Shown here in pieces: positions 33,020-33,640 of a DNA stretch of 64,000 nucleotides (position 1 is its first letter; the number at the start of each line of letters is the position of its first letter). The DNA comes from Haloarcula limicola (lineage in GTDB: Archaea; Halobacteriota; Halobacteria; Halobacteriales; Haloarculaceae): positions 124,001 through 188,000 of the forward strand of contig NZ_WRXM01000001.1 in the NCBI RefSeq assembly GCF_010119205.1, in the 5' to 3' direction. The position numbers were made by a program, and so were the translations under genes. Under the pieces are notes generated by a model that was not told where the DNA came from, did no database searches, and saw only the letters and a list, made by a program, of their open reading frames with translations.

Positions 33020-33026
33020 TTTATAT
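33020..33026 (+). promoter_or_regulatory. TATA box upstream of tRNA-Leu
   Basis: TTTATAT lies about 45 nt before the tRNA 5' end, a spacing that suits transcription of a short pre-tRNA leader. Confidence 0.5.
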
Positions 33027-33067
33027 CCCGATATCGTTGGTCGAACTGCACGACCGCGAGACAGCGT

Positions 33068-33151
33068 GCGAGGGTAGCCAAGCCAGGAAACGGCGGCGGA
33101 CTCAAGATCCGCTCCCGTAGGGGTCCAAGGGTTCAAATCCCTTCCCTCGCA
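33068..33151 (+). tRNA. tRNA-Leu (anticodon CAA)
   Basis: The 84-base gene starts GCGAGGG, which pairs exactly with CCCTCGC at the 3' end, followed by discriminator A. The anticodon stem is GCGGA/TCCGC with loop CTCAAGA, giving anticodon CAA for UUG codons. A long variable arm (TCCCGTAGGGGTCC) is typical of type-II tRNAs. The T arm is AAGGG-TTCAAAT-CCCTT. CCA is not encoded. There is no intron. Confidence 0.97.
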
Positions 33152-33156
33152 CTGTT

Positions 33157-33222
33157 GGACCTAATACGGTCCCTCGCACACAGTGCCGGAAGACTCGCAC
33201 GGAGCGATCTTCCCTCGCAACT
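33157..33222 (+). repeat. 66-bp direct repeat, copy 1, after tRNA-Leu
   Basis: GGACCTAATACGGTCCCTCGCACACAG... up to ...CCTCGCAACTTTC. An identical copy sits at 33452-33517, so the two are 295 bp apart. Each copy contains two CCCTCGCA octamers. Confidence 0.9.
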
Positions 33223-33254
33223 TTCCCTGATGTATTCTGTGGAGTGACCTCTGT

Positions 33255-33376
33255 AAACGGCGGCGGACTCGAAATCCGCTCCCGTAGGGTCGTCGCGAGC
33301 GTCAGCGAGCGACTGCTCGGAAGGCGAGCGAAGCGAGTCTTCCGGCGGTCCAAGGGTTCAAATCCCTTCCCTCGCA
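33255..33376 (+). pseudogene. Truncated, interrupted copy of tRNA-Leu
   Basis: The sequence AAACGGCGGCGGACTCGAAATCCGCTCCCGTAGGG matches the middle of the intact tRNA from its D-arm end through the anticodon stem. The T arm and acceptor strand (GGTCCAAGGGTTCAAATCCCTTCCCTCGCA) then follow after a 58-bp insertion of palindromic repeat in the variable arm. The 5' acceptor strand and D-arm start are missing, and the loop reads CTCGAAA (anticodon CGA). It cannot fold as a tRNA, so it is a broken duplicate. Confidence 0.85.
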
Positions 33377-33451
33377 CTGACCGACCGCTATCGCCGTCGG
33401 GCGGTGTCGCCGAAGGCGACGACGCCCGAGACGTGAAAGGGGTCGGGACGA

Positions 33452-33517
33452 GGACCTAATACGGTCCCTCGCACACAGTGCCGGAAGACTCGCACGGAGC
33501 GATCTTCCCTCGCAACT
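33452..33517 (+). repeat. 66-bp direct repeat, copy 2
   Basis: Identical to 33157-33222. It follows the broken tRNA copy and a second small palindromic insertion (33396-33431). Confidence 0.9.
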
Positions 33518-33640
33518 TTCGATAGAACGCCGCTGAGAGGGGTCTGCGAGCAGCGGCGACTCCTTCTCTCCTCTATTCGTTATCCTAACGGTTTGTAATA
33601 TATGGGTACTTTTATACTGTAACGTGAGTTATTGACTGGC
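33518..33640. other. Spacer upstream of the 33641 gene, promoter only
   Basis: The bases between the second direct repeat and the next gene contain an AT-rich stretch and the TATA box TTTATACT at 33611-33618, about 26 nt before the ATG at 33641. That spacing suggests a leaderless transcript. Confidence 0.5.

Follow-up and report, generated by a model that had tools for sequence, protein, structure and literature searches.

We propose that the region 3' of the tRNA-Leu(CAA) gene in our window (the whole stretch of 64,000 nucleotides that was analysed) is a conserved, structured 3' trailer of the tRNA precursor and not integration debris. The window belongs to genome G000, that of a Haloarcula-like haloarchaeon. 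The trailer would switch the fold of the precursor. For this reading as a whole we estimate a probability of about 0.5. The window carries a two-unit version of a structured tRNA-Leu trailer that is found across the class Halobacteria. Conservation and covariation support a trailer that would act as RNA.

Results

A conserved trailer behind tRNA-Leu(CAA)

The region contains the following features, all on the plus strand.

33020..33027, plus strand: TATA-box-like element TTTATATC, read from the sequence; likely the tRNA promoter
33068..33151, plus strand: intact tRNA-Leu(CAA) (ARAGORN; Rfam tRNA, 53 bits); acceptor 5' strand GCGAGGG, 3' strand CCCTCGC, discriminator A
33149..33186, plus strand: hpA of trailer unit 1; its stem GCACTGT/ACAGTGC takes in the last three tRNA bases (from the fold and from recurrence in Haloarcula and other genera)
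33188..33213, plus strand: hpB of trailer unit 1, GGAAGA...TCTTCC (alignment of 61 distinct sequences with compensatory changes)
33212..33219, plus strand: tail CCCTCGCA of unit 1; repeats the acceptor 3' strand with the discriminator and is complementary to the 5' strand of the tRNA (141 of 147 loci have such a copy downstream; covaries with the acceptor)
33255..33376, plus strand: 5'-truncated tRNA-Leu copy with anticodon arm, variable arm, T arm and acceptor 3' strand, and without the 5' acceptor strand (sequence match; not predicted as a tRNA)
33290..33347, plus strand: 58-nt double-hairpin insert in the variable arm of the copy (same position in 19 of 19 copies with a recognisable 3' part)
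33377..33451, plus strand: spacer hairpin CTGACCGACC...GGTCGGGACGA specific to unit 2, between the copy and the second trailer (also in L002)
33452..33520, plus strand: second trailer unit with the nested hairpin, hpB (33483-33508) and tail (33507-33514); identical to unit 1 over 69 nt

ARAGORN predicts the intact gene at 33068-33152, and the mature 3' end, the discriminator A, lies at 33151. The initial annotation had described this gene, followed by a copy that lacks its 5' part and has 58 bp inserted in the variable arm. It had also listed six occurrences of the octamer CCCTCGCA (33144, 33171, 33212, 33369, 33466 and 33507). Gene, copy and insert are all there, and the six positions are exact. 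In an Rfam search of the trailer and the copy, no family matched near or above its gathering score. The tRNA family was found alone, at the intact gene; otherwise there was one sub-threshold match of 16.6 bits on the minus strand within the tRNA. The minus strand of the window also holds an open frame of 91 amino acids (MRGKGFEPL..., 33102-33377), which is the antisense of tRNA and copy and is likely to be misannotated as a protein.

When the whole region was searched in 60 relatives, many matches extended past the tRNA. We compared the sequence behind tRNA-Leu(CAA) in 30 loci first and then in 147 non-redundant loci from many Halobacteria families. The comparison gives one layout that is common to these families: tRNA, hpA, hpB, tail. 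HpA starts within the final GCA of the tRNA itself, and UGC closes it. Within hpA of unit 1 there is a nested hairpin (GGACC-TAATAC-GGTCC) followed by CTCGCA. HpB typically reads GGAAGA...TCTTCC, or GGCAAGA...TCTTGCC in some lineages, and is followed by CTCGCA, so that CCCTCGCA is repeated exactly. This acceptor 3' octamer recurs within 450 nt downstream of the tRNA in 141 of the 147 loci and upstream in one, which is far above chance. The exact tail is missing in 6 of the 147.

After the tail, about 7-8 nt are conserved (A-rich, then pyrimidines) and conservation is then at background. The drop about 8 nt past the tail would fit the end of an RNA, short of proving it. Strong hairpins that end at a conserved A-rich and then pyrimidine tract could also be solely a transcription terminator or an insulator behind the tRNA. 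However, a scan for the bacterial-type consensus gave no U-run terminator-like site in the region, and such a role leaves the acceptor-matching tail unexplained. We consider it extremely improbable. As for the structured RNA trailer that we propose, trailers can be transcribed in Halobacteria, because two RNA 3' ends have been mapped behind a tRNA-Pro gene of Haloferax volcanii (PMC7237163). We found no account of trailers of the present kind in the literature searched (open-licence papers).

The tail follows the acceptor of its own tRNA

Comparison between loci also establishes that tail and acceptor match. Where the tRNA acceptor reads GCGGGGG, all seven non-redundant genomes carry CCCCCGCA downstream and none carries CCCTCGCA. 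These genomes have two hpB sequence types (L042 versus the others), which suggests that the change to GCGGGGG took place at least twice independently. The paralogous tRNA-Leu(GAG) has the acceptor GCGTGGG. Behind it, the order hpA-hpB-tail is present in 18 of the 30 loci read, with CCCACGCA as the tail. The hpB of tRNA-Leu(GAG) differs from that of tRNA-Leu(CAA), and its two arms change together (GGTGCA/TGCACC, GGTGAT/ATCACC, GGTGCT/AGCACC). With CCCCCGCA for GCGGGGG and CCCACGCA for the GAG gene, three acceptor classes therefore show a tail that tracks the acceptor of the tRNA in front of it.

The same holds in the alignment of 61 distinct sequences. For hpB and the tail-acceptor helix together, 96% of the cells are paired, compared to 37-61% in slid controls, and both sides are changed in 24 cells, compared to 4.7 in shuffles. 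HpB by itself is paired in 93% of its cells. The helix between tail and 5' strand is paired in 100%; its variable pair is A-U in 54 sequences and G-C in 7, and variation within tRNA-Leu(CAA) is limited to this one of the five acceptor-tail pairs. Since the tail equals the true 3' strand, pairing with the 5' strand is inseparable from selection for identity or gene conversion. The aligned hpB and tail, together with the GAG paralogue, provide the conserved trailer structure that would be expected of a functional 3' external transcribed spacer.

A trailer with conserved structure and short exposed repeats might be released as a small regulatory RNA, with the exposed CUCGCA as its seed. There is a precedent in E. 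coli, where the 3' external transcribed spacer of glyW-cysT-leuZ (3'ETS-leuZ) pairs with RyhB (PMC6191717). Like the trailer described here, it is a 3' trailer of a tRNA-Leu with a role beyond trimming (in our case a proposed one). However, 3'ETS-leuZ is a trans-acting sponge of RyhB, whereas the repeated motif of the haloarchaea is not constant: it tracks its own tRNA acceptor (CCCTCGCA, CCCCCGCA or CCCACGCA), which points to action in cis. Hence a cis partner fits better than a trans target, and we regard a released small RNA as doubtful. The two trailers are not homologous by any test made.

Origin of the second unit

The most plausible reading of the window's second unit is that tRNA and trailer were duplicated in tandem and the duplicate then decayed. 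The two members of the direct repeat, at 33157-33225 and 33452-33520, had been described as identical over 66 bp at a spacing of 295. Identity and spacing are correct, but the length was slightly underestimated: the members are identical in 69 of 69 positions. The partial copy matches the anticodon and variable arms of the tRNA at 33255-33289 (94%) and the T arm and acceptor 3' strand at 33347-33376. The insert measures 58 nt, because the spacing between copy and tRNA shifts from 167 to 225.

A partial tRNA-Leu copy stands behind the trailer in 25 of 144 loci. The 5' acceptor strand is intact in none of the 25, and several retain remnants of the D arm. From these partial copies and the second, near-identical trailer we conclude that tRNA and trailer were duplicated in tandem and that the tRNA part then decayed. 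Within the window, and likewise in L007 and L011, the two units have identical trailers, yet these differ between species. Recent duplication or gene conversion would keep the trailers of both units in step, and recombination between the repeats could remove the second unit. The spacer that is specific to unit 2 lies directly behind the intact tRNA in L003, L008 and L010. In L003 and L008, unit 1 was apparently deleted by recombination between the repeated tRNA 3' ends of about 30 bp.

Truncated tRNA pseudogenes are a known kind of sequence. The copy at 33255-33376 resembles them, as it derives from a tRNA, has no 5' acceptor strand with which to form an acceptor stem of its own and is not called by the tRNA prediction. 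In contrast to such pseudogenes, the copies here carry a structured insert, the double hairpin, at one fixed position of the variable arm in several genera (all 19 copies with a recognisable 3' part). The retained anticodon arm and the missing 5' acceptor strand argue against a split, permuted or intron-bearing tRNA. G000 has one further sequence related to the insert, about 80% identical and located on contig C6, and Haloarcula plasmids carry such sequences too; these relatives are possibly a separate structured RNA or repeat. In L213, L214 and L215, relatives of the insert sit in a longer hairpin stretch, away from any tRNA.

Such a history could mean that the entire region is neutral. A tRNA gene undergoing tandem duplication and template switching would have given rise to copies of its 3' end and to inverted arms, which gene conversion would keep alike, with no function involved. 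The second unit is clearly a decayed duplicate, L003 and L008 resemble deletion products, and extra modules come and go (their presence varies within Halorubrum and within Haloarcula). Neutral debris does not explain, however, why hpA, hpB and tail are near-universal across many families, strictly downstream of the tRNA and in sense orientation. Nor does it explain why the tail covers precisely the acceptor 3' strand and the discriminator, or the compensatory changes in hpB and tail. We think that debris is unlikely as an account of the region, although it keeps a real share of the probability.

Integration at tRNA-Leu(CAA)

tRNA genes are classic targets of integration, and in the window direct repeats of the tRNA 3' end flank DNA as they do at attachment-site scars. 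The region had for this reason been interpreted as the product of successive integration and excision, or of recombination, at the tRNA 3' end. Recombination at repeated tRNA 3' ends is supported by the arrangement in L003 and L008 and by the decayed tandem duplicate. Integration and excision at the 3' end are not, and they fail the comparison that the initial annotation itself had set as their test. In relatives the trailer is nearly constant, and its tail is found downstream in 141 of 147 loci across the class rather than being confined to the sites of elements. Between tRNA and trailer, none of the 147 loci contains an integrase element or a remnant of one. No integrase was found on the window's contig, as the initial annotation had said of the present state of the locus. 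In genus-level genomes, none of the integrases among the matches listed is near tRNA-Leu(CAA); they are tens of kb or more away, and those listed for G000 are located on contigs C2 and C4.

We searched 1.05 Mb of loci with 12 haloarchaeal integrases (tblastn) and found an integrase in four loci. L067 (3384-6016) contains an integrase-bearing element of about 2.5 kb. On one side of it is an intact tRNA-Leu(CAA), on the other the 5' half of a tRNA-Leu(CAA) that breaks off in the anticodon loop, and the trailer that follows the element is shortened. L067 is a real integration, at the anticodon loop, and its site resembles the 5'-half sites reported for pTN3-type integrases (PMC8371274). In L046 (1-976), a fragment of an integrase starts about 50 nt past a complete hpA-hpB trailer, beside an anticodon-loop-like stretch (AACTCAAGACGCC). 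The integrases of L062 and L088 are located upstream of the tRNA.

The element in L067, at the same tRNA gene, and the integrase fragment just past the trailer of L046 speak for integration scars, as do the direct repeats themselves. But the crossover in L067 is in the anticodon loop, and the fragment left over is the 5' half rather than the 3' half. Hence integration can strike this tRNA gene, but it does so through the anticodon loop and would not yield the repeats of the window. The trailer is near-constant, none of the 147 loci has an element in front of it, the integrases listed for the genus are not neighbours of this tRNA, and no plasmid or phage record has the trailer as an att site, so that successive scars are very improbable. 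Spread by plasmids or viruses was also considered and rejected. The generic module (Trp version) had no plasmid match, and the matches of the full Leu region were tRNA-Leu genes or their parts, the plasmid double hairpin and two short matches in Gordonia phages.

Alternatively, the copies of the 3' end could work as DNA. As decoy att sites they would draw SNJ2-type integrases away from the gene, or would allow the host to remove elements that have integrated. SNJ2-type integrases are confined to Halobacteria and have a 14-nt att site at the tRNA 3' end (PMC8371274), and about half of the tRNAs in G000 have copies of their 3' end downstream. However, the tails of hpB share merely 8-11 nt with the tRNA, and there is no integrated element at any copy behind tRNA-Leu(CAA). 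A decoy model also does not require covariation of the RNA type, and overall we judge it quite improbable. The structured trailer does resemble the tRNA att sites of archaeal tyrosine recombinases (SSV, pTN3, pT26-2, SNJ2; PMC8371274) in that parts of a tRNA are repeated beside an intact tRNA. It differs from them because there is no element or neighbouring integrase here and because the trailer is vertically inherited in most of the class.

Elsewhere in G000, tRNA-Thr(CGT) is followed at a distance of about 7 kb by an integrase gene (L284 and L289; contig C4, 72300-80900). This tRNA has no copy of its 3' end within 500 nt downstream, and the locus may hold an integrated element.

Predicted folds with and without the trailer

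Without its trailer, tRNA-Leu(CAA) is predicted to form its own acceptor stem in 85 of 85 cases, and the 5' strand is taken in none. With the cognate trailer, the minimum-energy fold gives the 5' acceptor strand of the tRNA to the trailer in 79 of 85 CAA and 14 of 14 GAG sequences. Dinucleotide-shuffled trailers take it in 81 of 255 (CAA) and 24 of 70 (GAG) cases, that is 32-34%. An earlier calculation, set up slightly differently, favoured the tail-closed state by a median of 6.1 kcal/mol. Positions 33060-33530 of the window fold with z = -5.45. All of these are nearest-neighbour energies of secondary structure, which ignore tertiary contacts of the tRNA, modification, salt and co-transcriptional folding. 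A real tRNA gains stability from tertiary contacts, from modification and from folding during transcription.

Similar modules behind other tRNA genes

Searches and selected stretches, on which our genome-wide statements for G000 rest, show the tRNA's own 3' end copied downstream in 22 of 42 tRNA genes tested; an upstream 12-nt copy occurs in none. Many of these downstream copies belong to modules in which an inverted T-loop arm and an inner hairpin are followed by the T-loop and acceptor 3' strand of the tRNA concerned. Recurring motifs of the inner hairpin are AGTCGCAG/ACCGTCT and CAGGGA/GACCGTG. Modules of this kind were seen at the G000 tRNA loci L050, L177, L199, L206, L209 and others.

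The pattern GATTTGAN{28,58}TTCAAATC is present in 107 of 116 Halobacteria genomes (44 of 45 genera) and sporadic in 101 other genomes of the phylum; a reversed control had nearly no matches. Compared by hand with tRNA positions, its sites are on the sense strand and no more than about 350 nt downstream of a tRNA in 4 of 4 cases in G000, 7 of 7 in G060 and 9 of 10 in G034. A general rule that trailer hairpins enclose the 3' end of the tRNA was rejected as not significant (15 of 22, compared to 10.9 expected). The generic modules may share the role of the tRNA-Leu trailer. Contig C1 of G060 (2635124-2637763) contains a dense cluster of more than 10 tRNA genes, several of which score low as tRNAs.

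Discussion

We infer that the trailer is transcribed together with the tRNA. In such a precursor, the tail and the true 3' strand would compete for the 5' acceptor strand of the tRNA. HpB would occupy the place where the T arm normally stacks, and the pairing of hpA would span the 3' cleavage site. The precursor could thus alternate between the canonical tRNA fold and a tail-closed fold, in which the true acceptor 3' strand is traded for a decoy. The function of this switch would be the timing or gating of end maturation by RNase P and tRNase Z.

A comparable effect has been described for bacterial RNase P, which is slowed when the leader pairs with the 3' RCCA and extends the acceptor stem (PMC9433436). 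In both cases extra pairing at the acceptor end alters the processing of the precursor, as observed there and predicted here. The pairing between leader and RCCA, however, is a short extension of the normal stem, whereas in the haloarchaeal precursor a whole second 3' strand would compete for the 5' strand.

An extension of the proposal to many tRNA genes of the Halobacteria is tentative, and we hold it to be a good deal less probable than the switch at tRNA-Leu. Tandem decoy 3' halves would then allow two mutually exclusive acceptor stems and form a maturation switch across the class. Such an acceptor-stem switch is not described in the sources that we searched.

The 3' trailers of tRNAs are usually regarded as waste for trimming. 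If our reading is true, the trailer of tRNA-Leu would be a new control of tRNA maturation: a trailer that mirrors its own tRNA and is kept over a whole archaeal class, behind two tRNA-Leu genes. Repeated tRNA ends in haloarchaeal genomes should also be read with caution, and not as integration sites by default.
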